This document shows, in pieces, positions 4,317-35,499 of a stretch of DNA of 45,684 bases. The position numbers and the translations under genes were made by a program. The DNA is from Bacillota bacterium (lineage in GTDB: Bacteria; Bacillota; Sulfobacillia; RBS10-35; JAJYVN01). Each line of letters starts with the position of its first letter. Position 1 is the first letter of the stretch. Where the stretch lies: contig JAJYVV010000009.1 in the NCBI GenBank assembly GCA_021791815.1, positions 1-45,684 of the forward strand. The letters run 5' to 3'. The notes under the pieces were generated by a model that worked only from the letters and a program-made list of their open reading frames with translations, was not told the DNA's origin and did no database searches.

Positions 4317-4368
4317 GGGAATCGGGAAGGCGCCGACGGCCGCGGCGCCCGCCGGCCGAAGGCGGGTC

Positions 4369-4947: not shown

Positions 4948-5008
4948 CCCACGGGCGGAACGTGGGCCCGCCAGGACCGGCGGCGGGCCTCCCTTGAGCC
5001 GCGGGCCC

Positions 5009-8603: not shown

Positions 8604-8745
8604 AGCCAGCGGGGCGCCGCTCCCGTAGGCTGACGGACGCGGGGTGCGCCCGCCTCCGCGCGCGGGATGTCCGGCGGCTCCACGCAGGGCACGGCGCGCG
8701 GCCGGGACCGCGCCGCTGCGGGCACCGAGCGGGAGGGACGCGCGC

Positions 8746-13147: not shown

Positions 13148-14023
13148 TCACGCCAGCCTGGGGCAGACCCTCGGGTCTCCGTAGTCGGGGACCCCGTCGA
13201 CCAGCCGGCAGAGTCGATCGTTGTGGTGGGCCGCGACCTTCCCGCCGGCGTACTCGTAGTGGCGGTGGCGGTTGTCCTCGGGCTGAAGGTGGATCGCGAT
13301 CGCGCGCCGCGGCTCGCTGCTCAGGTTGGCGCCGCTTCCGTGGATGAGGCGGCAGTGGTGGAAGCTCACCTGCCCGCGCCGCATGATCGCCGGCACCTTG
13401 ACCACGGCGTTGCCGCCCGTCTCGAACCGCCGCTCCAGGGCGTCGAGGTCGGGGTCGAAGAAGTCCAGGCGGTTCAGGGGCCAGCGGTGGCTGCCGTCGA
13501 CGAAGGTGATGGTCCCGATCGTCTCGTCGACGTCATGGAAGGCCACCCACGCCGTGAGCATCTCGTCGCTGCTCGCCACCATCCAGTACTGGCGGTCGGT
13601 GTGCCAGCCGACCTTGGCGGCCGCCGCCTCCACGATGGGCGGCTTGTAGAGGAGCTGGTCGTGCCAGAGGCGGATCGACGGCGAGCCGGTCAGCCGCCGT
13701 GCCACCGCGCCGATGGCCGGATAGCGCACCAAGGCGCCGAGTTCCTTCACCTGGAAGGAGGCGTAGTCGTTCTTGCGCATGGCCGTCCCGATCGGGGGCC
13801 TGAACCCCGCGGGCGGCCTCCAGCCGCTCGGCACGACCTGGTCGCGCTCGATCATGGGCGCGTCGTGGTCGCCCTCGTAGAAGCGCTCCATCCCCCGCGC
13901 CGCGGCGTCGACGACCTCGTCGGGGAGGATCTTCTTGGAGATGTAATAGCCGTGCTCACGGTAGAACGCGACGTCCTCGTCGGACGGCAGAGCCTCGGCG
14001 AGATCGATCGCGGCCTGTGCCAC
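13148..14023 (-). CDS. Phytanoyl-CoA dioxygenase (PhyH) family protein 2
   Basis: A 291-residue PhyH-type Fe(II)/2-oxoglutarate oxygenase. It opens with DEDVAFYREHGYYISKKILP. The iron-binding His and Asp lie in VGWHTDRQYWMV, the distal His in CRLIHGSGANLS, and the 2-oxoglutarate Arg in SEPRRAIAIHLQPED. The C-terminus carries YGDPRVCPRL, as in a group of PhyH proteins with a longer ordered end. It resembles its two neighbours only in the fold motifs, so these are not recent duplicates. GTG 14023 is used because upstream codons are low-complexity; the ribosome-binding site is poor. A flanking regulator remnant lies downstream. Confidence 0.88.
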   Translation of the reverse strand: MAQAAIDLAEALPSDEDVAFYREHGYYISKKILPDEVVDAAARGMERFYEGDHDAPMIERDQVVPSGWRPPAGFRPPIGTAMRKNDYASFQVKELGALVRYPAIGAVARRLTGSPSIRLWHDQLLYKPPIVEAAAAKVGWHTDRQYWMVASSDEMLTAWVAFHDVDETIGTITFVDGSHRWPLNRLDFFDPDLDALERRFETGGNAVVKVPAIMRRGQVSFHHCRLIHGSGANLSSEPRRAIAIHLQPEDNRHRHYEYAGGKVAAHHNDRLCRLVDGVPDYGDPRVCPRLA

Positions 14024-14310
14024 TGCCCATCCCCGCCGTCCGGGCGCCGGGGTGCGTCCCGGGCCTCGCCGCACGGGATACGCCCGCGGCGGCGGCGTCC
14101 CTGCCGGCCGCCCGCTGCTCGACGCCCTCGGCACGGGCGCGCCGGGAACGGCGGCGACGCGCCGGTACCCGAGGCCCCGGCCGGCCACATCTACCTGCAC
14201 ACGTTCACGCCCCGTCCTCGCCCGCACCGGGTGGCCGCCCGCCTGGCCCCGCCGCGAGGAACCACTCGTGGCGCGGAGCCCCGCCAAGTAGCGGCTGCCG
14301 GCCGCCCGGC

Positions 14311-14612
14311 CCGCTGACCGCCGAAGACCGCGGCGCCCTGGCCGTCGGGGCACGGAACACCCATCTGCCGGCCGTCCGCGCCATGCTCGACGCGGGGATG
14401 GAGCCCCGTGCCGAAGGGCCGGAGGCCTGCGCCGTGGATCCCGCCGCGTGGCACGGCTGCGCGGACACCGTCCACACCGGGCACACCAACGGCGACCATG
14501 CCGCCGTGGCGCGGCTGCCGATCGGGGCGAGGTCCCCCCCTTCCGACCGATGGCGCCCCCGGGGAGCGAGGCCGTCGCCGCGATCGTGCGCGACGCCGGC
14601 AGGCGGCCCGGC
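14311..14612 (+). pseudogene. Ankyrin-repeat protein remnant
   Basis: The plus strand reads LTAEDRGALAVGARNTHLPA and VRAMLDAGMEPRAEG, then AAWHGCADTV, then GDHAAVARLPIGA. After a frame change near 14545 it continues as GSEAVAAIVRDAGRR. Bacterial ankyrin proteins show the same order (AARxGxxxAVRxLLDAGxDPxA, AAWHGxADxVRLL, DHAAVxxLLxAGA). No good start codon or ribosome site fits, and repeats are shortened, so I read this as a decayed gene fragment. From 14024 to 14310 nothing recognisable is present. Confidence 0.5.
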
Positions 14613-14783
14613 AAGGCCGGTCGGGGCCTCGGGCACGTCATCCGGCCGCCCGCGCACCGGTGGTGGCCGCGGCGAGCGGGCGCAAAGCGCCTTGGCGGCG
14701 GCGGAGACGGGGCCGCCTCCGGGCCCGGCGAGCGGCGGCCCGGGGTGGACCGTCGCCCCCGCCTGGGGTGCCGTGCGCGCCTG

Positions 14784-16940: not shown

Positions 16941-18638
16941 ATGGGGCGGCAGATCCGCGCGGGCACGGCCCCCGAGGGCAGGAGGGCGCAGCAGGTCGCG
17001 GGCAAGCGTCCGGGCGCGGGGGGGCAGGACGCCGTCGTCGCCCCTCCGCGCCGCGGGGTGGTGGTGCGGCCCACCGGTGCCGCGGGGCCCGGGGCCGCGC
17101 GCGCGGAGCCCAAGACGCAGACGCGGGCGGCGTCCGACCGCCGGCCCGGCGAGGGGTGCCTGCTCGGCGTCGACATCGGGACCACCGGCAGCAAGGCCAT
17201 CGCCTTCACGCCCGACGGGCGCCCGGTGGCCCGCGGCTACGCGGACTATCCCCTGCACGTGGGTCCCGGTGGAACCGCGGAACTGGATGCCGAGGCCGTG
17301 ATGGACGCCCTGCGCCATGCCATCCGCGCCGCCTCGGCCGAGGCCTCCGCTGCCGGCGCGGGCCCGATCATCGCCCTCGCGGCCGCCGCGCAGGGGGAGG
17401 CCTTCACGGCCGTCGACCGCCACCTGGCGCCCCTGCGGCGATCCATCGTCACCTTCGATCGCCGCGGGCAGGCCGGCGCCGACGAACTGCGCGCCGCGGG
17501 CTGGGAGGGGCGCACCGAAAAGACGGGCCTCCCGCTGTCGTTCATCGTGACCGCGGCGAAACTGGCGGCCCTGCGCCGGGAAGACCCCGACCTGTACCGC
17601 CGGGCCGCCCACTTCCTCTGCTTCGAGGACCTGCTGGCGGCGCACCTCGTCGGCCACCCCGTGGGCAGCGACAGCCTCCTGCAGCGGACGTGGCTGCTGG
17701 ACCGGCACCGCCGCGGCTGGGACGACGCCGCGCGAGCGGAACTCGACCTGGCGGGCGGCCGCCTGGCGGAGGTCGCGCCCATGGGCGCCGCCGTGGGCGA
17801 GGTCACGCCGGCGGCGGCCCGCGCGTACGGCCTGCCCGCCGGCTGCCGGCTGGTCGCCGGCGCCCACGACCAGACCGCCGCGCTCCTCGGGGCGGGCGCG
17901 TTCCTGCCGGGCTTCGCGGCCCACGCCATCGGGACGGTGGACTGCCTCAGCGTCACCCTGCGCGACGGGGAGGCGGCGCGCTTCGTGGCCCGGGGCTACG
18001 GCCTCGGGCTGCACCCCCTGCCGGGACTCGCCGTGACCCTCGCCTTCGGCTTCGGCGGCGGCTCGCTGCTGGCCTGGGCGAAGACCCTCACCGGAGCCTC
18101 CGACGTCGGCGCCCTGCTCGCCGAGGTGCCGGAGGAGCCCGGTTCCGCGTTCGCGGTGCCCTTCTGGGCCGGTTCCGGCACCCCGGACCTCGACGCGGAA
18201 GACCGCGGCGCCGTCTTCGGCCTCACCCTGGAGACGACGCGAGGCGACTTCGTGGCGGCGCTGCTTCGCGGCATGGCCCTGGAGGGCCGGCGCAACATGG
18301 AGGTCCTCCGGGAGCTCGGCGTCGAGGTGCGGGAATGCCGCCTCGTGGGCGGCGGCGCGCAGAGCGCCGCCTGGTCGCAGCTGCGCGCCGATGTGGCGGG
18401 GCGGTCCTACGTGGAGATGGCCGTCCGCGACGCCGGGTGCCTGGGGGCGGCCATGCTGGCCGCGGTGGGCGCCGGCCTGTATCGCGACGCGAGCGCCGCC
18501 GGGGACGCGATGGTGCGCGCCGGGCCCCGCTTCGAGCCCCGCCCCGACGCCGCCGCCGCGTACTCCCAGGTGTACCCGGCGTACCTGCGGGCCGTGGCGG
18601 GGACGCGCGCCGCTCGGCCCGGAGCCGACGGCCGCTAG
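16941..18638 (+). CDS. rhaB: FGGY-family carbohydrate kinase, probable L-rhamnulokinase
   Basis: The kinase would phosphorylate L-rhamnulose at O-1. The FGGY fold starts at LGVDIGTTGSKAIAFTPDG (about residue 75), with the catalytic Asp in GAHDQTAALLGAG (about 310) and the ATP-site motif GGGAQSAAWSQLRADVAG near 470, then DAGCLGAAMLAAVGAGLY. Length (565) exceeds the usual about 490 because of a 70-residue Arg/Gly/Pro-rich N-terminal extension without structure. GTG codons at 17058-17064 could be the true start, but ATG 16941 has a fair GGGGGCAGGG site. Rhamnulokinase activity rests on the next two genes; alone it could be any FGGY sugar kinase. It is the first gene of the rhamnose operon. Confidence 0.82.
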   Translation: MGRQIRAGTAPEGRRAQQVAGKRPGAGGQDAVVAPPRRGVVVRPTGAAGPGAARAEPKTQTRAASDRRPGEGCLLGVDIGTTGSKAIAFTPDGRPVARGYADYPLHVGPGGTAELDAEAVMDALRHAIRAASAEASAAGAGPIIALAAAAQGEAFTAVDRHLAPLRRSIVTFDRRGQAGADELRAAGWEGRTEKTGLPLSFIVTAAKLAALRREDPDLYRRAAHFLCFEDLLAAHLVGHPVGSDSLLQRTWLLDRHRRGWDDAARAELDLAGGRLAEVAPMGAAVGEVTPAAARAYGLPAGCRLVAGAHDQTAALLGAGAFLPGFAAHAIGTVDCLSVTLRDGEAARFVARGYGLGLHPLPGLAVTLAFGFGGGSLLAWAKTLTGASDVGALLAEVPEEPGSAFAVPFWAGSGTPDLDAEDRGAVFGLTLETTRGDFVAALLRGMALEGRRNMEVLRELGVEVRECRLVGGGAQSAAWSQLRADVAGRSYVEMAVRDAGCLGAAMLAAVGAGLYRDASAAGDAMVRAGPRFEPRPDAAAAYSQVYPAYLRAVAGTRAARPGADGR

Positions 18639-18702
18639 GTGCGCCGCCCGTCCCGCCCAGGTCCGGTCCGAGTCCAACCCACCGACTGCCGGAGGTGCGC
18701 CC

Positions 18703-20745
18703 GTGCCCATCCCCTGGACCCCCCCGCCGCCCGAGCAGGCCCGCGACGCCCTGGGCGAACTGGTGCACCGGTCGCGGCTGCTCGGCGCCGACCGCTCGAT
18801 CTGCAACTGGGGCGGCGGCAATACGTCGTCCAAGGGTAGCGCGGCGGACTTCCGCGGCCGCACGGTGCGCGTGCTCCACGTCAAGGGCAGCGGGTCCGAC
18901 CTGGCCGACTGCGGGCCGCGGCACTTCGCGACCCTGGCGCTGGAGCCGATCCTCGAGCTCCTGGACCGCGAGGCCATGACGGATCAGGAGATGGTGGACT
19001 ACCTGGCGCACTGCGCCCTCCATCCGGGGGGCCCGCGCCCGTCCATCGAGACCCTCCTGCACGCGTTCCTGCCCGCTCCGCACGTGGACCACAGCCACCC
19101 CGACGCGATCGTCGCCCTGTGCACGGCTCGGGAGGGCCCGGAGTGGGCGCGGCGGATCTACGGAGACCGCGCCATCTGGATCCCCTACCGCCGCCCGGGG
19201 TTCGGGCTGGCGCGGCAGTGCGCCCTGGCCCTGCGCGAACGCCCGGACGCGCGGCTCATCCTGCTCGCCAAGCACGGCCTGATCACCTGGGGCGAGACGT
19301 CCGAGGAGTCGTACACGGGCACCATCCGCGCCGTCGCGGAGGCCGAGGCCTTCCTGCGGGGCCGGGGACCGGATGCGGCGCCGGCCCGGCGGTCGGCGGC
19401 GACCGCGCCCGCGGAGCCGGTCGAGTCGCTGCTTCCGTGGCTGCGGGGGCGGCTTTCGGCCGGCGGCCGGGTCGTGCTCACCCTGGACGACACCCCCGAG
19501 ACCCTGGCCTTCCTGGACGACGAGGCGCGCATGGCGGTCATCGCCGAGGGGGCGGCATGCCCCGATCACCTGGTCCACACGGGCCGCCTGCCGCTGCGGC
19601 TGCGCCGGGGCGCGGACCGGCCGGCCATCGAGGCGGCCCTCGCCGCCTTCGCGCGGGACGTGACCGCCGAGTACGGGGCGTGCTCCGCGCGGGGGGAGGC
19701 GCAGTTCCCCCAGGACCCTCCCATCCCGCGGGTGATCCTGCTCCCGGGCGTGGGCCTGATCACCTCCGGCAGGAGCAAGGCCGCATCGCGGGTCAGCCGC
19801 GACCTCGCCCACCGGGCGATGGCCGTGGCCGACCTGCTGGTGCGCGCGAGCGGCGCCTACGAGCCGCTCGGGGCGCAGGACGCCCACAACGTCCAATACT
19901 GGCCCCTGGAGCGGTACAAGCTCACGCTGCAGCCGCCGGAGCGCGAGTTCTCGCGCCAGGTGGCCTTCATCACCGGCGGCGCCGGAGGCATCGGGAGCGC
20001 CATCGGGCGCCGCTTCGCGGGGGGCGGCGGCCACGTCGTGCTCGCCGACCTCGACGGGCCCGGCGCGGAGGCGCGGGCCAAGGAGCTGAACGCCGAATTC
20101 GGGGACGGCTGCGCCACGGCGGTGGCCGTCAACGTCACCGACGAGGCGCAGGTGGCGGCGGCCATGGGCGCCGCGGTGCGCGCGTACGGCGGCATCGACC
20201 TCTGCGTCGCCAACGCCGGCATCGCCTCCTCGGCCCGCATCGAAGACACGTCCATGGACGAGTGGAACCGGAACCTGTCGGTCCTCGCGACCGGCTACTT
20301 CCTCGCGGCGCGGGAAGCCGCCCGCGTCCTCCGCGGCCAGGGGTCGGGCGGCTCCATCGTGTTCGTGGCGTCGAAGAACGCGGTCGCCGCCGGCAAGAAC
20401 ATCTCGGCGTACGGGGCGGCGAAGGCGGCCGAACTGCACCTGGCGCGCTGCCTGGCCGAGGAGTTGGGACCGGACGGCATCCGGGTGAACGTGGTGAATC
20501 CGGACGCCGTCCTGTCGGGATCGCGCATCTGGTCGTCCGACTGGAAGAAGGCCAGGGCGGCGAACTACGGCATCGCGGAGGAGGACCTGCCGGCCTTCTA
20601 CCGCCAGCGCACGATCCTCCACGTGAACATCGAACCGGGCGACGTGGCCGAGGCGGTCTGCTTCCTCGCGTCGGCCCGCGCGAGCAAGACCACGGGCGCG
20701 ATGCTGCCGGTCGACGGCGGCGTCGGCCCGGCGTTCCCTCGGTAG
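18703..20745 (+). CDS. rhaEW: Bifunctional L-rhamnulose-1-phosphate aldolase / L-lactaldehyde dehydrogenase
   Basis: A 680-residue fusion of YuxG/RhaEW type. Residues 1-400 are a class II aldolase: NWGGGNTSSKG phosphate site (about 35), Zn ligands in HVDHSHPDAI (from 127) and KHGLITWGE (His about 191). Residues 415-680 are a short-chain dehydrogenase with TGGAGGIGSA (about 424), NAGIASSA and the YGAAK active site (Tyr about 570). The aldolase splits rhamnulose-1-phosphate into DHAP and L-lactaldehyde; the SDR half oxidises lactaldehyde to L-lactate, as shown for RhaEW in other bacteria. Start GTG 18703 has GGAGGTG six bases upstream. It lies 64 bases after the kinase and upstream of the isomerase. 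Confidence 0.93.
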   Translation: MPIPWTPPPPEQARDALGELVHRSRLLGADRSICNWGGGNTSSKGSAADFRGRTVRVLHVKGSGSDLADCGPRHFATLALEPILELLDREAMTDQEMVDYLAHCALHPGGPRPSIETLLHAFLPAPHVDHSHPDAIVALCTAREGPEWARRIYGDRAIWIPYRRPGFGLARQCALALRERPDARLILLAKHGLITWGETSEESYTGTIRAVAEAEAFLRGRGPDAAPARRSAATAPAEPVESLLPWLRGRLSAGGRVVLTLDDTPETLAFLDDEARMAVIAEGAACPDHLVHTGRLPLRLRRGADRPAIEAALAAFARDVTAEYGACSARGEAQFPQDPPIPRVILLPGVGLITSGRSKAASRVSRDLAHRAMAVADLLVRASGAYEPLGAQDAHNVQYWPLERYKLTLQPPEREFSRQVAFITGGAGGIGSAIGRRFAGGGGHVVLADLDGPGAEARAKELNAEFGDGCATAVAVNVTDEAQVAAAMGAAVRAYGGIDLCVANAGIASSARIEDTSMDEWNRNLSVLATGYFLAAREAARVLRGQGSGGSIVFVASKNAVAAGKNISAYGAAKAAELHLARCLAEELGPDGIRVNVVNPDAVLSGSRIWSSDWKKARAANYGIAEEDLPAFYRQRTILHVNIEPGDVAEAVCFLASARASKTTGAMLPVDGGVGPAFPR

Positions 20746-20928
20746 GGGGGCGACCGCGGACGGCCCCGCCTCCCGCGGTCGCCCCGGGCCGCGCCGGTCG
20801 TGGCGCGACTCCGCCCGGCCGCCACCGCCCGGCAGGGCCGACCAGACCACCCGGCGAAGCGGCCGGCGTGGGGCGTCCCGGCCGCCGGGCCGGGCGCGCG
20901 ATCCGGACCGCCGGGAGGTCGATGCGCC

Positions 20929-22059
20929 GTGGCCGTCTCCCCGGAGATCTCCGACATGCTCGCCCGCTTCACCGTGGCCATCCCGTCCTGGGGCTTCTCC
21001 CCCATGGGCACGCGCTTCGCCACGTTCCTCCTGGGGGACGAGGCCCGCGACATTTACGGACGGATCGACCGCGCGTCCGAAGTGCACCAGGCGACGGGCA
21101 TCACGCCCGGGCTCGCCCTGCATTTCCCCTGGGACCGCACGGACGACCTCGGCGCCCTCGGCCGGTACATCCACGCGCGCGGCCTGCGGGTCGAGGCCGT
21201 GAACCCGAACACGTTCCAGGATCCGACCTACCGGCTGGGGAGCGTGGCGCACCACGACCCGGCGGTCCGGCGGCAGGCCGTGGAGCACCTGCTCTGGTGC
21301 GTGGAGGCCCAGAAGCAGCTGGACGCGCCCTACCTGTCCCTCTGGTTCGCGGATGGCACGAACTATCCGGGTCAGGCCGACTTCCGCCGTCGCCACGAGG
21401 CGGTGCTGGACAGCCTGCGGCCCGTGGCCGCCGCCCTGGCGCCGGGCCACACGATGCTGGTCGAGTACAAGCCGTTCGAGCCGGCCTTCTACCACACCGA
21501 CCTCGCGGACTGGGGCACCGCCCTGCTGGTGTGCCAGCAGCTCGGGGCCCAGGCGAAGGTGATCGTCGACCTCGGCCATCACCTGCAGGGCCACAACGTC
21601 GAATTCACCGTCGCCCTGCTGCAGCACGCCGGCCGCCTGGGCGGGTTCCACCTCAACAACCGCAAGTACGCCGACGACGACCTGATGACGGGCAGCCTCG
21701 ACCCGTACGGCCTCTTCCTCATCTTCCGCGAACTGGTCAAGGGCGAGCGGCTGTATGGGCGACGCATCGAGTCCGTCTCCTACTGCCTGGACCAGTCGGC
21801 CAACGTCGAGGCCAAGGTGCCGGCGATGATCCTCTCCGTGATGAACACCCAGGAAGCCTTCGCCAAGGCGCTGCTGGTCGACGAGGACGCGCTCGCGGCC
21901 GCGGAGGCGGAGGGCGACGTGATCGCGGCGCAGGAGGTCCTGCGGGCGGCCTTCCTGACGGACGTGCGCCCGATGCTGGCGGAATTCCGGCGCGGCCGCG
22001 GCACGCCGGAGGACCCGTTGCGGTATCATCGGGAGCGGATGGCGCCCGCGCGGGCGTAG
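20929..22059 (+). CDS. rhaI: L-rhamnose isomerase, RhaI type
   Basis: The isomerase converts L-rhamnose to L-rhamnulose in a metal-dependent TIM barrel. The 376-residue protein resembles Pseudomonas stutzeri/rhizobial RhaI rather than E. coli RhaA: TVAIPSWGFSPMGTRFATF, LHFPWDRTDDLGAL, NPNTFQDPTYRLGS, then metal ligands Glu in VEYKPFEPAF (about 179), Asp in VDLGHH (about 214), His in GGFHLNNRKYADDD (about 241). Start GTG 20929 follows GGGAGGTC by nine bases; an ATG seven bases earlier is out of frame. It follows rhaEW by 183 bases, same direction. The protein ends normally, with TAG as stop. Confidence 0.92.
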   Translation: MAVSPEISDMLARFTVAIPSWGFSPMGTRFATFLLGDEARDIYGRIDRASEVHQATGITPGLALHFPWDRTDDLGALGRYIHARGLRVEAVNPNTFQDPTYRLGSVAHHDPAVRRQAVEHLLWCVEAQKQLDAPYLSLWFADGTNYPGQADFRRRHEAVLDSLRPVAAALAPGHTMLVEYKPFEPAFYHTDLADWGTALLVCQQLGAQAKVIVDLGHHLQGHNVEFTVALLQHAGRLGGFHLNNRKYADDDLMTGSLDPYGLFLIFRELVKGERLYGRRIESVSYCLDQSANVEAKVPAMILSVMNTQEAFAKALLVDEDALAAAEAEGDVIAAQEVLRAAFLTDVRPMLAEFRRGRGTPEDPLRYHRERMAPARA

Positions 22060-22113
22060 TGCCGGGCTGCGCGCGGCCGGCAGCCGACGCCGCCGGGCCG
22101 GGAGGGAATGCCC

Positions 22114-22305
22114 GTGCTTTCCGGGGTCTTCGCTCCCACGATGTTGCTCCGTTTGTTCGCCCTGTCGGCCCTGCTCGTCGCGGGGACCATGGTGGGCTTG
22201 GCCGTGGTTGGCTCGTCGGCGCGGCGGGCGGACGCGGACCTTCGCGAGCGGCTCGCCGAAGCGCGGGAGCGGGCGGCGGCGCGCGGAGGCCGCCGGAGCC
22301 GCTAG
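22114..22305 (+). CDS. Small single-helix membrane protein, unknown
   Basis: A 63-residue peptide: short N-terminus, one strong hydrophobic helix (LFALSALLVAGTMVGLAVVG), then a basic/acidic Arg-Ala-rich tail on the cytosolic side (positive-inside rule). GTG 22114 has GGAGGGA six bases upstream; the ATG at 22108 sits almost on that site and is less likely. It follows rhaI by 54 bases and probably belongs to the same operon. I do not recognise a family; it could be a membrane anchor or a sugar-uptake accessory, but that is guesswork. Confidence 0.55.
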   Translation: MLSGVFAPTMLLRLFALSALLVAGTMVGLAVVGSSARRADADLRERLAEARERAAARGGRRSR

Positions 22306-22375
22306 GCCCGCCCCGCGCCAGCGCCGATGGCCGCTCCCGCCCCGCGGCCGCACCCCCGTGGGTCCGCAGGCCCGC

Positions 22376-24595
22376 TCACCGCGCCTGGTCCGCCGCCAGC
22401 GCCTCCGCGCGGCGGGCCGCGCCGAGGCCCCACGGCCACCACGACGCCGTGCCCAGCAGCGCGATCGAAGCCGGGACCAGCAACGCCCGGACGATCCACG
22501 TATCCATCAGAATGGCGATCGACAGCCCCATGGCCAGGGTCCGCATCAACTGCAGCGGCGAGAGCAGCAGGGCGCCGAAGGCCACGACCATCAGCAGCCC
22601 GGCCCCCGTGACCATGCCGCCGGTTTCCTCAAGGCCGAGGCGGGCGGCCTCGGCGGCCGGGCGGCCGACCGCACGTTCCGTCGCCTGGAGCCGGGCCGCA
22701 TGCTCGCGGATGCGGTGGATCAGGATGACCTCGTAGTCCATCGACAGGCCGAAGAGGATCACGAAGATCAGCGGCGTGATGCTCGCGTCGAGGGGCAGCG
22801 CCTCGAACCCGAAGCGCCCGCCCTGCACGGCGAAGACGAGGATGCCAGCCGTGGCCAGGGCCACCAGCCCGTCGAACAGGACCGCCAGCACGGCCACGCC
22901 GAGCGACCCGCTGGCGGCGAACAGCACCACCAGGGCCACCCCGGCGACGACCGCCACCATCCCGGGCAGCGTCTCCGCGACCAGGTTGTTGAAGGACTGC
23001 AGCAGGGCGACCGCCCCGCCGGCCGCGCCGTGCCAACCGGCGGGCAGCCCCGCCATGATCGTCCCGATCTGGTGGAGCAACGCCGTGGTGCGCGGATCGT
23101 CCGGTCCATAGCGGGAGGTGACGGACAGGGCGATGAGGTCCGGCGGGCCGGTCGCGGCCTGCAGGGCGGCGGGCGGGCCCCCCGGAGCCGCGAACGCCGC
23201 GGCCATCGCCGCCGCGGGCACGCCGCCCGACGTCGGCGACGCGATCGACAGGACCGCCGGCAGCGCCTGGATCTTGGCGGACACGGCCGCGACCTCACTC
23301 CACGTCGCGGTGCTGGAAAGCGGTCCGGCCGACTGCAGCACCACCGGGATCGGCGCGATGGAGCCGGCGCCATAGTCGTGCTGCTGCTGCTCGACCGTCA
23401 GCCGGGCCACGTCGCTTGGCGCCAGCATCTTGGCCACGTTCGCCGGCGTGCGCACCCGTATCCCGGGGCTCCAGAGCGCGGGCACCGCCAGGACCACCAT
23501 GCCGACGGCGAAGACGGCCGCGGGACGGCGCGCCACCAGGGCCGCGACCCACGGCCAGAAGCGGCCGAGCCACGCCGGGCGCGGCAGGCGGCCCCATTCG
23601 GCGCGGGGTCCGAGCAGGGCAAGCAGCGCCGGCAGCAGCGTCAGCGTCGTGAGCAGGACGGCCAACACGGCGGCGCACCCGCCCACGGCCAGCCCGCGCC
23701 AATAGGGCGTCCGGGGCAGCAGGAGCGCCAGCATCGAAGCACCGACCGCCAGCGCGGAAAAGAACACCGACACGCCGGAGGTGCGCATCGCCTCCGCCAG
23801 CGCGCGGGCCACGGCCCCAGAGCGCCCGGCGCGATCGGCGGGCAGCGGCCCGTCGCGCCGCAGGGCGGAGCGGAAACGCGAACTCAGGAACAGGGAGTAG
23901 TCGATGCCCACGCCGAGGGCCAGGAAGCTCACGATGTTGGTGAGGTAGGCGGACAACTGCATGTAGGACTCCAGGAGGTCGACCGCGGCGAGGGCCAGGA
24001 CGGCGCCGACCAAGGCCACGAGCAGCGGCAGGACCGCGGCCACCAGGGAGTCGTAGACGAGGAAGAGCAGGATGGCGAGGAGGGGCAGGGCGATGCGCGC
24101 CGAGACCTTGAGGGTCGTCATGGCGGAGGTGAGGACCCCGCCGCCGGCGGAGTCCATGGTGACGAATTGAAGCGTCACACCGGCCTGCCCGGAGAGCGAC
24201 CGCTGCAGCGCCGCGGAGGCGGCGGAGGCGGCAGGCCCGGGTTGGATGTCGACGACGACCGCGGTCGGATGCCCGGGCAGGGCGGTGACGGCGGCCGTCG
24301 GGGCCGCGCCGGGTTGGGCCGTTGCCGCGGCGGTCTGCCACGCCGCCTCCACCTTGGAGAGCGGCAGGCCCTCCACGAGGATGCTCAGCGCGGGGGACGG
24401 AGCGCTGGGGGAACCGCCGCCGGACGCCTGGCCGATCCGCTTGAGCTGGTTGTCGGCCCAGGTCGCCTGGCTGCGCGGGTCGTCGAGGCCGGAACCCGAC
24501 AGGTTGTGACCGACGTGCAGCGCCCGCGGCACGGCCAGGAGCAGGACGGCGAGCCACAGCGCGAGCAGCGGGAAGCGGAGGCGGTGCCACACCAT
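22376..24595 (-). CDS. MMPL/RND-superfamily transporter
   Basis: A 739-residue inner-membrane protein of the MMPL (YdfJ-like) group. It has an N-terminal helix, an extracytosolic domain (about 30-170), a block of about five helices with a GxxxDY motif (LALGVGIDYSLFLSSRFR, about 220), a helix near residue 310, a second extracytosolic domain (about 340-500), and a second helix block with GLSMDYEVILIHRIREH (about 620). The Asp-Tyr pairs are the proton-relay residues of the family. Related proteins export lipids or drugs by proton motive force; the cargo here is unknown. ATG 24595 was chosen because the frame upstream is not hydrophobic. It is divergent from lutA (138-base spacer). Confidence 0.9.
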   Translation of the reverse strand: MVWHRLRFPLLALWLAVLLLAVPRALHVGHNLSGSGLDDPRSQATWADNQLKRIGQASGGGSPSAPSPALSILVEGLPLSKVEAAWQTAAATAQPGAAPTAAVTALPGHPTAVVVDIQPGPAASAASAALQRSLSGQAGVTLQFVTMDSAGGGVLTSAMTTLKVSARIALPLLAILLFLVYDSLVAAVLPLLVALVGAVLALAAVDLLESYMQLSAYLTNIVSFLALGVGIDYSLFLSSRFRSALRRDGPLPADRAGRSGAVARALAEAMRTSGVSVFFSALAVGASMLALLLPRTPYWRGLAVGGCAAVLAVLLTTLTLLPALLALLGPRAEWGRLPRPAWLGRFWPWVAALVARRPAAVFAVGMVVLAVPALWSPGIRVRTPANVAKMLAPSDVARLTVEQQQHDYGAGSIAPIPVVLQSAGPLSSTATWSEVAAVSAKIQALPAVLSIASPTSGGVPAAAMAAAFAAPGGPPAALQAATGPPDLIALSVTSRYGPDDPRTTALLHQIGTIMAGLPAGWHGAAGGAVALLQSFNNLVAETLPGMVAVVAGVALVVLFAASGSLGVAVLAVLFDGLVALATAGILVFAVQGGRFGFEALPLDASITPLIFVILFGLSMDYEVILIHRIREHAARLQATERAVGRPAAEAARLGLEETGGMVTGAGLLMVVAFGALLLSPLQLMRTLAMGLSIAILMDTWIVRALLVPASIALLGTASWWPWGLGAARRAEALAADQAR

Positions 24596-24625
24596 GAACG
24601 GCTTGTCCCCCCGTTCGCCATGCGG

Positions 24626-24631
24626 ATCATA
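24626..24631 (-). promoter_or_regulatory. Candidate -10 element (TATGAT) for the MMPL gene
   Basis: Minus-strand TATGAT ends 31 bases before ATG 24595, giving a short leader. No matching -35 is visible. Confidence 0.35.
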
Positions 24632-24733
24632 GCGGAAGGGCCGGCCGCCGCCCACTCCGGGCTGAGCGCCGCCGGGGAGCTGCCAGGAACGCGGCGGCAG
24701 GCCGCGCCGCCAACCCTGCCGAACGTACCGGGC

Positions 24734-25534
24734 ATGAAGGTTGCCCTGCTTGTGACCTGCCTGGCCGAAGCCTTTGCGCCGCAGGTCGCGGACGCCGCGG
24801 CGCGCCTCGTCGCCGCCGCCGCCCCCGACGCCGAGGTGGTGCCGGTCGACCGGTGCTGCTGCGGCCAGCCCGCCTGGAACGCGGGCTATCCCGGGCAAGC
24901 CCGGACGATGGCGCGGGGGCTCCTGCCGCGGCTGCGGGAATGCGACCTGGTGGTCGTGCCCTCGGGATCGTGCGCGACCATGCTCCTCCGCTACTACCCG
25001 CACCTGTTCGCCGAAGGCGACCCCGCCGGGGAGGCGGCCCGCGCGGTGGCCGCCAAGACAGTAGAACTCACGGCGTTCCTGGCGGCCCACCTCCCGGCGG
25101 ACGGCGCGCCGCCGGAAGGCGCGGCCGCCCCGACCGGCGCTGGCGGCGCTCCGAGCATCGCATTCCACCCCTCCTGCCACTCGCTGCGCGGCGCGCGCGT
25201 GGGCGACGCGGGCGAGCGGTGCCTCCGCGCCGCCGGCTGCGAGGTGCGCCAGGCGGGCGCCGCCGACGAGTGCTGCGGCTTTGGCGGCCTGTTCGCCGTC
25301 AAGGAGGACGCCCTCTCCGTGGCCATGGCCGACCGCAAGCTGGACGGCCTGCTCGCCACCGGCGCGCCGGAGGTCGCGGCGGGCGAGCTGGGGTGCCTCA
25401 TGCACCTGGAGGGACGCGCCCAGCGCCGCGGCATGTCGCTGCGCTTCCGCCACGTCGCGGAGGTCCTGGCCGACGCCAACGGCCGCCCCGCAGGGCCCGG
25501 CGGGCCCGCGGAGCCGGGGCGTGACGCCCGGTGA
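24734..25534 (+). CDS. lutA: LutA-type L-lactate oxidation Fe-S subunit (CCG-domain protein)
   Basis: The 266-residue protein has two cysteine-rich CCG domains: VDRCCCGQPAWNAGY (about 40) with VVPSGSCATML (about 80), and HPSCHSLR (about 150) with DECCGFGGLFAVK (about 178) and GELGCLMHLEG (about 220). These bind a non-canonical Fe-S cluster of heterodisulfide-reductase type. LutA with LutB and LutC makes the L-lactate oxidase complex that yields pyruvate. ATG 24734 was chosen at the start of the conserved KVALLVTC strand; only a weak GAACG site precedes it. The stop overlaps the start of the next gene by four bases (GTGA), so the two are translationally coupled. Confidence 0.92.
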   Translation: MKVALLVTCLAEAFAPQVADAAARLVAAAAPDAEVVPVDRCCCGQPAWNAGYPGQARTMARGLLPRLRECDLVVVPSGSCATMLLRYYPHLFAEGDPAGEAARAVAAKTVELTAFLAAHLPADGAPPEGAAAPTGAGGAPSIAFHPSCHSLRGARVGDAGERCLRAAGCEVRQAGAADECCGFGGLFAVKEDALSVAMADRKLDGLLATGAPEVAAGELGCLMHLEGRAQRRGMSLRFRHVAEVLADANGRPAGPGGPAEPGRDAR

Positions 25535-27465
25535 CCGAGTTCATCCCGGCCGAGGCCGTTCTGGCCCGCGCCGTCCGCTCCACGACCGACCGCCTCGCCG
25601 CCGGCCGCACGACCGCCCTGGCGGGGATGGCCGATCCCGACGCGGCCCGCGCCCGCGCCCGCGCGGCCCGCCAGCGCGCCGTGTCCCGCCTGCCGGCCAC
25701 GCTCGCGACCTTCGAGGCCGCGGCCGGCCGCAACGGCACCGTGGTCCACCGGGCCGCCGACGCGGCCTCCGCGGTCCGCATCGTCGCCGACATCCTCCGG
25801 CGCGCCGGCGCACGGCGCGTCGTGAAGTCCAAATCCATGGCGACGGAGGAGATCCGCCTCCGCGAGCGCCTGGAACACGCCGGCATCCAGGTCGTGGAGA
25901 CCGACCTCGGCGAGTGGATCGTGCAGCTCGCCGGCCAGATGCCGTCGCACATCATCGTCCCCGCGGTGCACCTGAACCGCCAGCGCATCCGGGCCCTGCT
26001 GTCCGCGGTCGCGGGCCGCGACCTCGGGGCCCAGACCTCCGCGCTCGCGGGCTTCGCCCGCGCGCACCTGCGGGAGCGGTTCCTCGAGGCCGACGCCGGC
26101 ATCAGCGGCGCCAACGTCCTGACCGCCGACACCGGCGGCCTGATGATCGTGAGCAACGAGGGCAACGCCCGCATGTGCACGACGCTGCCCCGCCTGCACA
26201 TCGCGGTGGTGGGCGTCGAGAAGGTCGTGGAGTCGACGCGCGACGCCCTGGACGTGCTGGCCGTCCTGCCGCGGTCCGCCACCGGCCAGCCGATCACGCA
26301 GTATGTATCGTTCCTGCGCGGTCCGCGCCGCGCGAAGGACGCCGAGGGCGACGGCCCCGACGAACTGCACGTGGTGCTCCTGGACAACGGCCGGTCGCGG
26401 CTGGTGGGCACCCCGGCGGAGGAGCTGCTGTACTGCATCCGATGCGGGGCGTGCCTCAACGTCTGCCCCGTCTACCGCACCATCGGCGGCCACGGCTACG
26501 GGTCCGTCTATCCGGGCCCCATCGGGGCGGCGCTCACGCCGCGGCTGACGCGGGGCCGCGAGGGGCGCGACCTGCCATGGGCGTCCTCGCTGTGCGGCGC
26601 GTGCCGCGACGCCTGCCCGGTGGGCATCCAGCTCGACGACCAACTGATCGCCCTGCGGGCCGAGTACCCGAAGCCCCTCGGGGAGCGCGCGGCGATGGTC
26701 GCGTACGCGGCGGCCGCGTCGCGGCCTGCGGTGTTCGGCGCCGCGCTGCGCGTGGCGCGCGTCGTGCTCGGGGGCCAGCCGGCGGACCGCCTGCCCGGGG
26801 TGTTGGACCGGTGGACGCGCGGCCGCCGGGTGCCCGGCATCGCCCCGCTGAGACGGCACCTGCGCCTGGAGCCGGCGCCGCGGAAAGACGCGCCGCTGCC
26901 GCCGCCGGCCGTCCCGCGCCAGGGCGGGACCACTTCCGAGGCGCCCGGTACGGCGGCGCCGGCGCCGGACCTGGTCGAGCGCTTCAGCGAGCGGTGGCGG
27001 GCACAGGGGGGCGCCGCAGTGGTCGTCGCCCGCGCGGACCTGGCGTCCGCCGTGCGGGAGGCGATCGGCGCCGGACCCGTGAGCCCCGACGCCGCGCTGG
27101 AGGGTCTGGTGGAGGGCATCGCGCGCGCGGAGCCCGCCGCCGCGGCGTCGGGCCTGGTGTGGGCCGCGGCTGCCGCCGCCGAGACCGGATCAGTCGTCCT
27201 TCCGAGTGGCCCGGGCACGGAGCGGCGCCGCTCGCTGCTGCCACCGCGGGCGGTGTTCGTCGTGGACGGCGGGTTCATCCACCCGGATCTGCACGCCGCC
27301 TTCGAGGCGGCCGGGCTGCTGGAGGCTCCGGCCGACGCCCCCCCCGCGCCCGCGGCCATCACGGTCGTCTCCGGGCCGAGCCGCTCCGCCGACATCGAGA
27401 ACGACCTGGTGATCGGGGTGCACGGGCCCGGCGAGGTCGTGGCGATCGTGGTGCGCGAAGCGTAG
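25531..27465 (+). CDS. lutB: LutB-LutC fusion, lactate oxidation iron-sulfur protein
   Basis: A 644-residue chain joining two normally separate proteins. Residues 1-465 are LutB: KSKSMATEEIRLRERLEHAG (about 105), the LUD-domain core, then 4Fe-4S ligands in CIRCGACLNVCPVY (302, 305, 308, 312) and CGACRDACPVGI (355, 358, 362). After a Pro/Arg linker, residues about 480-644 are LutC-like: AQGGAAVVVARADLA, AETGSVVLPSG, RAVFVVDGG and the end SRSADIENDLVIGVHGPGEV. LutC normally is a separate gene. Together with LutA the complex oxidises L-lactate to pyruvate. No lactate permease is nearby. GTG 25531 overlaps the lutA stop. LutC here lacks part of its usual N-terminal region, so I call the fusion from the C-terminal core. 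Confidence 0.9.
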   Translation: MTEFIPAEAVLARAVRSTTDRLAAGRTTALAGMADPDAARARARAARQRAVSRLPATLATFEAAAGRNGTVVHRAADAASAVRIVADILRRAGARRVVKSKSMATEEIRLRERLEHAGIQVVETDLGEWIVQLAGQMPSHIIVPAVHLNRQRIRALLSAVAGRDLGAQTSALAGFARAHLRERFLEADAGISGANVLTADTGGLMIVSNEGNARMCTTLPRLHIAVVGVEKVVESTRDALDVLAVLPRSATGQPITQYVSFLRGPRRAKDAEGDGPDELHVVLLDNGRSRLVGTPAEELLYCIRCGACLNVCPVYRTIGGHGYGSVYPGPIGAALTPRLTRGREGRDLPWASSLCGACRDACPVGIQLDDQLIALRAEYPKPLGERAAMVAYAAAASRPAVFGAALRVARVVLGGQPADRLPGVLDRWTRGRRVPGIAPLRRHLRLEPAPRKDAPLPPPAVPRQGGTTSEAPGTAAPAPDLVERFSERWRAQGGAAVVVARADLASAVREAIGAGPVSPDAALEGLVEGIARAEPAAAASGLVWAAAAAAETGSVVLPSGPGTERRRSLLPPRAVFVVDGGFIHPDLHAAFEAAGLLEAPADAPPAPAAITVVSGPSRSADIENDLVIGVHGPGEVVAIVVREA

Positions 27466-28305: not shown

Positions 28306-30306
28306 CTACAGCCCGGGCTCCCACGCCGGAAGCGAGACCTGCGCCCGGTAGTTCGAGGTGTTGTGGCGCGGGAGGCGGACCGGGCGGTACAGGCGGCCGG
28401 GCGGCGCGGGCCGGTCCTGGGTGTAGATCCACATGCGGTCCGCATCCCAGACCACGATCTCGTCGCGAGGGTCGCCGGTGAGGTCGACGGCCTCCGCGCA
28501 GAGGGTGGGGTGCCCGTCGCGGGGCAGCCGGACGGGCCGGCGGCCCCAACCGTCGAGCAGGCCCCCCTCCTCGGGGTCCGCGTCCAGCAGGAGCAGTTCG
28601 CTGCCGTCGCCTGCCCAGTTCACGGGTTCCAGGTGGCTCGCGCGGTAGGTGGGCTGGTGTTGCCCGATCCGACGGCACTCCCGATCGTAGAGGGTGACGA
28701 GGCCCGGTTCCCGCCAGAAGGTGGTGGTCGCCTGCTGGAGGCCGCCCTGCCCTGGGCGCAGCGGCGCCAGCGTGATCCCCTGCGTGTGCCCCGTGTTGTC
28801 GCGGGCGAGCACCTGGCCGTCCGCATCGTACCAGACGATGCCGGCATCGCCCGCGGCGACGATGATCCGCATCGGATGCGGTCCGGCCGTGGGGCAGCCC
28901 CAGGGCCCCATGGCGACGCCGTCCGCATGGTCCTCCAACGGCCGGCGCCAGCGGACCGCGCCGTCGGGCCCGAGGAGACTGTCCCCGCAGAAGACCTCGT
29001 CGCGGCCGTCGCCGTCCAGGTCGCGCACGGCCGGGAAGTGCCCGGTCACGCCGCTCCACCGCCACAGCGGGCGCAGGTCGCGCCCGTCCAGGGCCCAGAG
29101 GTTGTTGTACCGGTCCTTGACGAGGATGTCGCCGGGGTGCCCGGCGCCGCGCAGGTCGGCGAAGCACAGGCAGTCGCCGGGGATGCGCCGGAAGAGGCGC
29201 TCGTCGAGCCGGTCGGTCCGGGGCCCCGGGGTCGGGAGCGGCGCCGCGGCCCGCACGCGCCCGGTCGCCCCGTCGCGGACGGTCAGTTCGAAGTGCGTCG
29301 CGGCCACGACCTCGGGGCGGCCGTCGCCGTCGAGGTCGTGGATCTGCAGGGGCACGTCGTAGGTCAACAGGGCCAGCGCGGGGTTGGGTCGTCCCCACCG
29401 CCACAGCACGCGGCCGTGCAGGTCGCAGGCCGTGAGGCAGGTGATCGCCGCGGCGTTCTGCCCGGGCCCGATCGTGCTGTTCTGCGCGACGACGAACTCC
29501 AGCTGCCCGTCGCCGTCGAGGTCTCCCCAGCGCACCGCCCGGCCGGCCCCGAACCCGGGCGTGTCGATCGTGCGCCAGAGCCGCGGCGCCGGCAGTGCCA
29601 CGCCGGCCTCCGCCTCCGCGGCATCCCACGCCCGCCGCCGGCGGCGCCAGCCGTCGGCGTCCGATTCGCCGCAGGTCACGCGGAAGGCGCGGTAGGCGGC
29701 CGGGGAGGAGGCCACGAGGCCGGCGGCCCCGCAGGGCACGTCCGTCTCGGCGTGCAGTTGCGGGCCGCCGTCCACGGAGGCGGCCACGGCGCGTCCGTGG
29801 AACGCCAGCCGCAGGCGGTGGAACGTGTCGTGTCCATGGGGCCAGGGCGCCGAGGCGAGCACCCGCTCGGCCTCGTGGTCCCGTTCGGTCACGCGCAGCT
29901 CCAGGCCGGCCCACAGCCAGAGCGCGACGTAGCGGCGGTTGTGCAGCACCCTCCCGCACACGCCGGCGGCGCCTGCGGCCAGGGGCCTCAGGCCCACCTC
30001 GACGTCCGCGTCGCCCCAGAGCGGATCGCCGGTCACCAGGAGGGCGTGGGCGTGTCGCCGCTCGCGGGACACGACCATCGCCGGCCCCTCGGCGAACGGC
30101 AGGACCTGCCACGTGGCCGTGCCCCGCCAGGAGGAATGGAGGGAGCCCTCGCGCCACCGCCCGCGGTAGCCGGGGAGCGGCGGCACGTGGTACTCGCCAA
30201 GCGGCGAGTAGTCGCAGGGCAGCGGGCCGGGCGGAAAGTCGCCGAAGTCCTCGTCGCTCAGGACCACCACGGGCCGCGCCCCCTTTGCGCCGGGGCGCCC
30301 GGTCAT
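28306..30306 (-). CDS. VCBS/FG-GAP repeat protein with lectin-like N-terminal domain
   Basis: A 666-residue protein without a signal peptide. Residues about 65-210 look like a concanavalin-type jellyroll (GDPLWGDADVEVGLRPL, RYVALWLWAGLELRV). From about 245 there are calcium-type repeats: WGDLDGDGQLEFVV, IHDLDGDGRPEVVAA, VRDLDGDGRDEVFCG, then VDLTGDPRDEIVVWDADR and a final RYNNLWAL-like blade set, forming a seven- or eight-bladed propeller. Similar propellers occur in rhamnogalacturonan lyases of family PL11 and in sugar-binding proteins. The closing RHNTSNYRAQVSLP resembles that group, but no catalytic residue can be named. The start codon overlaps the preceding gfo/idh gene by four bases. 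Its role may be polysaccharide handling near the rhamnose genes. Confidence 0.75.
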   Translation of the reverse strand: MTGRPGAKGARPVVVLSDEDFGDFPPGPLPCDYSPLGEYHVPPLPGYRGRWREGSLHSSWRGTATWQVLPFAEGPAMVVSRERRHAHALLVTGDPLWGDADVEVGLRPLAAGAAGVCGRVLHNRRYVALWLWAGLELRVTERDHEAERVLASAPWPHGHDTFHRLRLAFHGRAVAASVDGGPQLHAETDVPCGAAGLVASSPAAYRAFRVTCGESDADGWRRRRRAWDAAEAEAGVALPAPRLWRTIDTPGFGAGRAVRWGDLDGDGQLEFVVAQNSTIGPGQNAAAITCLTACDLHGRVLWRWGRPNPALALLTYDVPLQIHDLDGDGRPEVVAATHFELTVRDGATGRVRAAAPLPTPGPRTDRLDERLFRRIPGDCLCFADLRGAGHPGDILVKDRYNNLWALDGRDLRPLWRWSGVTGHFPAVRDLDGDGRDEVFCGDSLLGPDGAVRWRRPLEDHADGVAMGPWGCPTAGPHPMRIIVAAGDAGIVWYDADGQVLARDNTGHTQGITLAPLRPGQGGLQQATTTFWREPGLVTLYDRECRRIGQHQPTYRASHLEPVNWAGDGSELLLLDADPEEGGLLDGWGRRPVRLPRDGHPTLCAEAVDLTGDPRDEIVVWDADRMWIYTQDRPAPPGRLYRPVRLPRHNTSNYRAQVSLPAWEPGL

Positions 30307-31445
30307 CCGGCGCCCGCCCGCGGTCCCTCCGGGTCGAGGACCAGCCGCCCCGCGGCCAGGTCCCCGTACAGGGCGTCGATCTCCGCGCGGTCGACGGGGA
30401 GCCGCACCCTCCGCCCGGTCAGGCCGGACAGGTGCATCGCGTTGGCCAGTTCCAGGGCGCGCAGGCCGTCCTCACCCGTGGCGACCAGGTCGCCTTCCCC
30501 CGCCACGGCGCGGGCGAAGGCGGCGATGACCGCGCCCGTCGTGTCCCCGCCCCCGCCCTCGAGCGGGACCTCGCGCCACTCCACCGTGAACGGGGTCGCC
30601 CGGCGGTCCGTGGTGTGCAGGATGTCCTCGGCGACGGGCCGCGGATAGCGGCAGTGCAGCAGCTTGCCGTCGCGGACCGCGAGGCGCCCGAGCTCTCCCG
30701 TGATCTCGATGGACCGGCGGCCCTGGGGGTCGGCCGTGGTCGCCCGGAAGAAGCCGGTCTGGGTGCCCCCGTACTCCAGCAAGGCCGACACGGTATTCTC
30801 CACCTCGATGCGGTGCACGCGCCGCCGCAGGGTGGCCGTCAGCGCCGCCGGCATGCCGCCGAGCCACGCCAGGAGATCGAGGTCGTGCGGCGCCTGGTTG
30901 GCGAGGATGCCGCCCCCCTCGCCCTTCCAGGTGCCCCGCCAGGCGCCGCCCTCGTAGTACGACTGGAGGCGGTACCAGCCCGTGGAGCTCATCTCGACCT
31001 CGTGCAGGGCGCCCAGGGCGCCCGAGGCGATGATCTCGCGGGCCTGGCGGTGCAGGGGCTCCAGCCGCCGCTGGAACATGACGCCGAGGCGCACGCCGGC
31101 GCGGCGCGCGGCCGCGACCATGCGGTCGGCCTCGGCGACCCGGACCGCGATCGGCTTCTCCGTGAGCACGTGGATGCCGCGCTCCGCCGCGTCGACCGCG
31201 ATCTGGGCGTGGAACGGGTGCGGGGTGCCGATCAGCACCGCCTCCACGAGCCCGCTCTCCAGCAGGGCCACGTGCGAGGTGTGGCCGGGGACGCCGGCCT
31301 GGGCGGCGACCTTCTCGGCCTGGGCCGCGACCACGTCGGCCACCGCCGTGAGTTCGACCTCCGGAACCGCAGCCACCGCCCGGACCAGGCCGCTCCCCCG
31401 CCCACCGACGCCCACCACGCCCATCCGCAACCTGGCCACGCCCAT
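30303..31445 (-). CDS. Gfo/Idh/MocA-family oxidoreductase
   Basis: A 380-residue NAD(P)-dependent sugar oxidoreductase. The Rossmann start RLRMGVVGVGGRGSGLVRAV carries the GxGxxG loop, followed by VEAVLIGTPHPFHAQIA and the conserved EKPIAVRVAEAD (Lys is the catalytic base of the family). The C-terminal half has GGILANQAPHDLDLLAWLGG, whose His acts in substrate oxidation. Bacterial members oxidise inositols, hexoses or amino sugars; the substrate here is unknown. ATG 31445 was chosen because the longer frame is low-complexity; the ribosome site is a G-run right before ATG. Its stop codon overlaps the start of the VCBS gene (ATGA), so the two proteins are made together. Confidence 0.9.
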   Translation of the reverse strand: MGVARLRMGVVGVGGRGSGLVRAVAAVPEVELTAVADVVAAQAEKVAAQAGVPGHTSHVALLESGLVEAVLIGTPHPFHAQIAVDAAERGIHVLTEKPIAVRVAEADRMVAAARRAGVRLGVMFQRRLEPLHRQAREIIASGALGALHEVEMSSTGWYRLQSYYEGGAWRGTWKGEGGGILANQAPHDLDLLAWLGGMPAALTATLRRRVHRIEVENTVSALLEYGGTQTGFFRATTADPQGRRSIEITGELGRLAVRDGKLLHCRYPRPVAEDILHTTDRRATPFTVEWREVPLEGGGGDTTGAVIAAFARAVAGEGDLVATGEDGLRALELANAMHLSGLTGRRVRLPVDRAEIDALYGDLAAGRLVLDPEGPRAGAG

Positions 31446-31555
31446 CCCCCCGCTCGTGCGACTGCCGCGACGCGCCAACCTTTCCCCCACTTTCCGCCGC
31501 CCGCCGCCGGCTCCTGCGGGCACCACGGCCAGGGGCGGCGCCGGGCCCGCCCGCG

Positions 31556-33309
31556 TCACTCCCGCGCCGCCGCCTCCGCCCGGTCCATGGCGACGCGGAC
31601 CCACGGCCCCTCGGCGTCATACTCCCTGGTGGCGGGCCCCCGCGACCTCGACCCGCGGCGGACGGCGGTCGGCCCCGATCAGGGCGCGCATGCCCGCCGC
31701 CCGTGGCCCCCTCCTCGGCGCGCCTCCGCGCGAAGAGGTGCGCGTCCGTCTCCCAACCTTCGACCGTGAGGTTGCCGTTGCGGTGCATGCGACGCCCGTC
31801 GGCCCTCAGATGGACGTAGACGTCCGGGCGGCGGCCCCCTTCCCGCAGCCGCGCCCAGATCCAGTCCGGGCCCGCCGCCGCCTCGACGTGGGCGGATGGC
31901 CCCTCCGGGCCATGCAGCACGAAGGCCGTGCGGGACTTCGTCTCGCGCGCCGGTTCGGGCAGGGCGAAGGCGAAGTACGGGAGATGCACGTCCGGCCGGT
32001 GGTCGGCGAGGCCGTCGGCCTCGGAGGACGCCAGGCGGTCCGGATGCAGCGGGTGGACGGCGACCCGCGCCGGGCCGTCGCCCAAAACCACCGCCGGGCC
32101 GGCCGCCGTGGAACAGGATGAGCGAACCGGCGTCGGCGTGGGCGTGGTTCCAGGTGAACCCGCACTTCACCGCGAGCATCGTGGCGTCGTCCTCCCAGGA
32201 CGAGCCGAGGACGGGCCAGCCCGCCTCCGGGTATAGGTAGGGCCCCAGGCCGTCGGGACGGCGGGGAGGGGTGGGCGTGGGCGACGCCGGGGACGGGCGG
32301 GGCTCCGCGCCCAGCGCCTGCAGGCTGATGGCCGGCGCCGGCCTGCGCGCGCGAGCCGCGTACCAGGCCAGTTCCGGAGTGCCGAACCCGTTCGCCGCGA
32401 GCAGCGCGGCGGTCCGCCCGGCGTCGCCGCGCAGGCTGCTGTCGCCGAAGTTGACCGTCCGCAGCTCGGCCGCCGTGGGGTAGCGGGTGTGGACGACGAA
32501 CGCACCCACGCGGCCGAGCACGGCCGGGCTCGGGGGCTCGCCGAGCGTGCGGCCCAAGGCCAGGCGGAAGCGAAGGAACTCCTAGAGGCCGTAGTCCGCA
32601 TAGCCCACGTTCTCGTAGAAGGCGCCGCCGGCGGCGAAGTTGCGCGTCTTGTTTTGGAGGGCGGATCCCGCGTCGTCGAACCAGAAGTCCCGCGCCTCAG
32701 CCGCGGCGTGCGCCCAGGGCTCGGCGCGCGGGTCGTCGCCGAGGATGGTCGGGGCGGCGAGGCCCGCATGGGAGACGCACACGCTCCACCAGTCGTGGCC
32801 CATGGAGTCGAGGGCGTGGATGCGGCGGGCCGGCAGGTCCCAGTCCTCCAGCGCAGGCACGATGCCCAAACGCACGAGGGCGGCCGCCACGGCGGGTCGT
32901 TCCGCCGCAGGCCGCGGCCTTCCCACTTCGCGCAGGACCCGTAGTGCAGCAGGGCGTCGCCCGTCACCTCGTAGGCGAGGCCGAGGACGAGCCCCATGTC
33001 CACGACCTGGGCGCTCGGCCGCCCGTAGTCGCCGTGCTGGGTATCGGGGGCGTCCGCCTCGGACCCGGGGGCGGGCGGCGCCGTGGGGAGGCCGTCGGCC
33101 TGCTCCGCCAGTTGCAGCCAGAGCCCGCGCAACGGGCGCGGTTCGGGGTCGCCGTCCCGGGGCGCCGCCGCCGCGCGGATGTCCGCGATGAGGTCCGGAC
33201 CGTAGAGCAGGCGGGGCGGGCCCGCGGCGGGTTCGGGGCCGGGCGGCGACGGCAACGCGTGCGCCCTCCTCGGGCGGGTCGGCCGGACGGCGCGTCCCCC
33301 GGCCCGCAC
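31556..33309 (-). pseudogene. Heparinase II/III-like gene, broken by frameshifts and an internal TAG
   Basis: A single heparinase II/III-type polysaccharide lyase can be read in pieces. The N-terminal (alpha/alpha) toroid begins RLLYGPDLIADIRAAAA near 33210, runs to AKWEGRGLR near 32920, shifts frame near 32900 and continues to YADYGL. There a TAG (32582-32584) interrupts it before EFLRFRLALG in the same frame. The beta-sandwich part carries TVNFGDSSLRGDAGR and NHAHADAGSLILF, which include the family's His and Asn residues. Further shifts near 32095 and before 31620 follow, with a REYDAEGPWVRVAMDRAEAA end at 31556. Four or more breaks make it non-functional. It lies upstream of the Gfo/Idh gene. 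Confidence 0.75.
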
Positions 33310-35350: not shown

Positions 35351-35369
35351 GAACGATGGCGCCGCATGT

Positions 35370-35395
35370 CCCGCGGGCATGCCCTGCCCTGCGGG
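35370..35395 (+). terminator. Terminator-like hairpin in the riboswitch expression platform
   Basis: CCCGCGGGCA (35370-35379) pairs with TGCCC-T-GCGGG (35385-35395, one bulged T) over a five-base loop, about 20 bases after the aptamer. No U-run follows, so termination would be of the GC-rich type. A second small hairpin, CCCCC-GAG-GGGGG at 35481-35493, covers the ribosome-binding site and could act instead. Confidence 0.4.
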
Positions 35396-35499
35396 CCCAA
35401 CGCGACTCGTCTGTTGGCCGCGCGTCGTGGCGCACCGCGGCAGCGGAGACGCGATGGTCGGGCGCTCAGCGACGGCGATTCCCCCGAGGGGGGCTTGCT

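Follow-up and report, generated by a model that had tools for sequence, protein, structure and literature searches.

Comparison with described RhaEW pathways

RhaEW proteins from C. aurantiacus and B. subtilis have been tested in vitro (Rodionova et al. 2013, PMC3870299). The same study placed lldD and lldEFG in the RhaR regulons of certain RhaEW-bearing Actinomycetales and Rhodobacterales and suggested that the pathway probably continues as far as pyruvate; lldEFG and lutABC are two names for the same genes (PMC6955870). Because lldEFG had already been assigned to RhaR regulons with pyruvate as the proposed product, the coupling of rha and lut genes is not new in kind, and the novelty implied in a preliminary description of the locus studied here has to be given up.

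The window, that is, the whole stretch of DNA analyzed, is an entire 45.7-kb contig (C269) from the draft genome of an uncultured Bacillota bacterium (3.86 Mb, 278 contigs, 86.8% complete). Like the RhaR regulons that contain lldEFG or lldD (PMC3870299), the locus combines a RhaEW-type pathway with LutABC, and the proposed end product is pyruvate; however, the part of that paper dealing with the lut link names other taxa, and in the window LutB and LutC form one protein and the block contains no regulator. The rhaEW operon of B. subtilis and the rha operon of C. aurantiacus also encode a bifunctional RhaEW, and the C. aurantiacus regulator belongs to the DeoR family, as in two relatives of the window genome (G004 and G005). 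However, the isomerase is RhaA in those operons and RhaI in the window, and no lut genes are named in the passages of PMC3870299 describing them. A literature search by title and abstract start found no report of a rha-lut link in any Bacillota, nor of one involving a fused LutBC. What is added here is a new lineage, a fused LutBC, and evidence for repeated recruitment. The 2013 proposal gains support from an operon that has the lactate oxidase genes enclosed by rhamnose genes and that belongs to a lineage absent from the lut passage of PMC3870299. These data aid the annotation of carbon flow in uncultured Bacillota and leave the understanding of rhamnose breakdown unchanged.

Organization of the locus

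Profile and domain searches found all five of the genes described previously (FGGY kinase, RhaEW, RhaI, LutA, and LutBC), with coordinates and strand much as reported. The locus very probably encodes L-rhamnose catabolism extended from lactate to pyruvate: RhaI would convert L-rhamnose to L-rhamnulose, the FGGY kinase would phosphorylate L-rhamnulose, RhaEW would cleave the rhamnulose phosphate to DHAP and L-lactaldehyde and then oxidize L-lactaldehyde to L-lactate, and LutA with the fused LutBC would convert L-lactate to pyruvate. The enzyme families were assigned by sequence; we infer the kinase substrate, pathway flux, and co-regulation from synteny and from other species.

The rha and lut genes are linked on the same strand, but a complete MMPL-family transporter gene (PF03176; 22376-24595, minus strand), which had been missed, lies between rhaI and lutA and splits the block. 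Because this gene is on the opposite strand, the window contains two transcription blocks rather than one operon. The start codons of lutA and the MMPL gene are divergent and 138 bases apart; with the two halves separated in this way, lutA and lutBC, which overlap by 4 bases, must have their own promoter in the window genome. A counterpart of the MMPL gene (60% identical, same place and orientation) was found only in G005 among four relatives compared, and the transporter is probably not part of the rhamnose-lactate pathway. A small ORF at 22108-22305 had no tblastn match in four relatives.

Predicted rhamnose-converting enzymes

The first gene of the block (16941-18638, plus strand) encodes an FGGY-family sugar kinase with FGGY_N and FGGY_C domains; its FGGY domain begins at amino acid 74, and the true start lies between 16941 and about 17155. 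The best model was TIGR01312 XylB (203 bits, cut-off 380), and the rhamnulokinase model TIGR02627 gave 33.9 bits, short of its cut-off of 527.95; xylulokinase and glycerol kinase both scored above rhamnulokinase. Since the model scores do not name the kinase as a rhamnulokinase, its role as RhaB rests on context and linkage, with kinases 52-70% identical linked to rhaEW in G003, G004, and G005. By genomic context it is a probable L-rhamnulokinase, with predicted activity on L-rhamnulose.

RhaEW, rhamnulose-1-phosphate aldolase fused to lactaldehyde dehydrogenase (18703-20745, plus strand), passed TIGR02632 with 735.9 bits (cut-off 567.75), matching model positions 2-676 of 676 and thus covering both domains. 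Its likely start is the GTG at 18703, behind a ribosome-site-like GGAGGT that is also present in G004 and G005. The residues E121, H135, H137, H196, and Y575/K579 were invariant across the five family members. RhaEW-like proteins with 35% identity also occurred in two Thermoplasmata archaeon MAGs (L035 and L036).

RhaI, L-rhamnose isomerase (20800-22059, plus strand; the true start may lie anywhere within about the first 110 bases), scored 466.2 bits with TIGR02635, below the cut-off of 531.35, yet this was the best hit and nearly full length; because of the cut-off we grade it as a RhaI homologue. Its best solved relatives were the P. stutzeri L-rhamnose isomerases (2hcv, E 8.5e-89), the best xylose isomerase giving E 5.2e-16. 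The metal site of the P. stutzeri enzyme, which we take to consist of E219, D254, H257, H281, D289, D291, and D327, was matched by an identical residue in window RhaI at seven of seven positions in the 2hcv alignment inspected by eye.

The kinase scores favoring xylulokinase and glycerol kinase, together with a RhaI below its curated cut-off, would also fit a kinase and a RhaI-like isomerase that act on another 6-deoxy or pentose sugar, in a locus not primarily for rhamnose. We regard this as highly improbable, given that RhaEW passed TIGR02632 and that RhaI resembles L-rhamnose isomerases far more closely than xylose isomerases by the E-values above.

LutA and the fused LutBC

The domains that define LutABC were all found: two CCG domains in LutA, LUD and 4Fe-4S dicluster domains in LutB, and LUD in LutC. 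LutA (LldE), the cysteine-rich subunit of L-lactate oxidation (24734-25534, plus strand), contains two stretches of PF02754 and is 50-66% identical to its counterparts in G002-G005. LutBC (25531-27465, plus strand) is a fusion of LutB (LldF) and LutC (LldG), with the domain order LUD, 4Fe-4S (Fer4_8), LutB_C, and a second LUD. The cluster cysteines C302, C305, C308, C312, C355, C358, and C362 were invariant in three family members. With TIGR00273 the LutB part scored 415.4 bits, below the cut-off of 444.8, and all five family members fell between 407 and 427. The best NCBIfam match of window LutBC, at 418 bits, was LdhH, the large subunit of a quinone-linked L-lactate dehydrogenase (NF045670), a 706-position model whose first part covers LutB; however, this score is below the 800-bit cut-off and the alignment spans only model positions 13-448, the C-terminal LUD having been found by Pfam.

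Synteny within the family

A search of 61 genomes of relatives (RhaEW threshold E <= 1e-60) detected RhaEW in five, all from the window's family of six genomes. Each of these five carries a single copy of lutBC, with lutA and lutBC downstream of rhaI in every case. Neither rhaEW nor lutBC was found in the sixth family genome, G001, in which deoR and the start of rhaB lie at a contig end; given this break and a completeness of 81%, the missing genes may reflect an assembly gap. The lut genes follow rhaI directly in G002, G003, and G004 and follow the MMPL gene in the window; in G005 they come after the MMPL gene, a CitMHS transporter gene, and some further DNA. The G002 copy of rhaEW is on a different contig from rhaI-lut, and in G004 two opposite-strand genes lie between rhaEW and rhaI.

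The tightest arrangement was in G003, where rhaEW (stop 3419), rhaI (3433-4548), lutA (4548-5354), lutBC (start 5320 or 5302, stop 7245), and rhaB (7242) are all on one strand, with a 13-bp gap or an overlap at each junction. Since lutA-lutBC are packed between rhaI and rhaB, lut lies inside the rha operon in this genome. Conserved synteny of rhaEW with lutABC in related genomes had been proposed as a check, and the linkage is not confined to the window genome: it was present in 5/5 rhaEW-bearing family genomes and in other lineages. The rhamnose-to-pyruvate reading is therefore well backed by synteny, including the packed G003 operon, although it was preceded by the 2013 proposal (PMC3870299) and had overlooked the MMPL split.

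The block broken by MMPL in the window and G005, and the separate promoter needed by lutA-lutBC in the window, would instead suit lut genes that act on external lactate or on a different hydroxy acid, merely adjoin the rhamnose genes, and are regulated apart from them. Two order-level relatives without rhaEW (G009 and G012; loci L055 and L056) point the same way: they have unfused lutABC near glycolate-oxidase-like genes, with a glycerate kinase gene in L056, so that Lut may serve other hydroxy acids. Such a separate role is unlikely, however, in view of the packed G003 operon, the linkage in all five family genomes and several other lineages, and the single lutBC per genome, all of which argue for lactate oxidation as an extension of rhamnose catabolism.

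Linkage beyond the family and LutB phylogeny

A contig scan gave 34 loci, of which 32 had RhaEW at E <= 1e-20; L044 and L045, with the SDR half only, were left out, and G002-G005 and L014, L015, L013, and L012 were taken as the same contigs and counted once. LutB was within 10 kb of RhaEW in at least 9 of the 32 named loci (3/4 family records and 6/28 others), a lower bound since several RhaEW loci end short. The linked loci outside the family came from three Alicyclobacillus, Paenibacillus taihuensis, Pseudalkalibacillus salsuginis, and one actinobacterial MAG. No LutB was found in the available sequence of the other 23, several of which are short. The earlier remark that the lactate oxidase is usually missing from rhamnose loci thus fits most loci, but is far from true of all.

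Among 398 genomes drawn evenly from the phylum, each at least 85% complete (RhaEW threshold E <= 1e-80), RhaEW was detected in nine, namely the window genome and eight outside the class. The best LutB match was within 10 kb of RhaEW in three of these eight (G079, G159, and G260), compared with 0.034 expected if each genome has one LutB placed at random (P about 4e-6); in the remaining five LutB was far away. The linkage of RhaEW and LutB exceeds chance.

The LutB tree, built from 37 rows, grouped the five family members in one clade (100/100), separate from the linked Bacilli copies; the neighbors of this clade were relatives at class and order level (96/88 and 88/76). The fewest changes in linkage on this tree were four. 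Spread of rha and lut as one cassette, modeled by constraining the 14 linked LutB rows to one clade against the 23 others, was rejected (AU p 3.4e-7) in a test that was set after the tree had been seen and that includes two rows on long branches. The LutB phylogeny favors repeated recruitment of the linked copies over a single origin; an old cassette whose lut genes were exchanged later may be an alternative. We tentatively propose, with somewhat less than even confidence, that RhaEW-type loci acquired LutABC in several independent events, drawing on different LutB lineages, and that the sole Lut of the family, with its fused LutBC, is dedicated to rhamnose-derived lactate. If so, the onward oxidation of sugar-derived lactate would be a selected, convergent feature.

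Regulation, transport, and neighboring genes

The statement that the block contains no transporter or dedicated regulator holds for the scanned window ORFs with the exception of the MMPL gene; among relatives, however, a DeoR-family gene directly precedes rhaB in G004 and G005, and a 64% identical one precedes rhaB in G001. An ion-channel gene occupies this position before the window kinase, and the best DeoR match in the window genome is only 39% identical and located elsewhere. DeoR-like genes accompany rhaEW in many loci beyond the family. An operator search upstream of deoR, rhaB, rhaEW, rhaI, and lutA of family members revealed only short, mostly G+C-rich 11-mers in common and no recognizable site.

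PF13407 was above its cut-off at three places in the window genome, none on the window contig, and these were not assigned to rhamnose uptake. In G002 (L054:7958-11786), lutBC is followed by genes for an SBP_bac_1 solute-binding protein and an MFS transporter, possible uptake genes. The rhamnosidase model PF17389 was above its cut-off at two places in G003 and one in G004 and had no match in the window genome, so that polymer feeding is not established as a family-wide trait.

Elsewhere in the window, a gene for an FG-GAP repeat protein adjoins a Gfo/Idh/MocA oxidoreductase gene with a 4-base overlap (28306-31604); the repeat protein matches rhamnogalacturonan lyase family 11 weakly and partially. 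Two PhyH-family (phytanoyl-CoA dioxygenase-like) genes are on opposite strands within 6 kb (8644-9621 and 13148-14641), and the gene at 35356-37665 encodes a Na+/H+ exchanger fused to universal stress protein domains.
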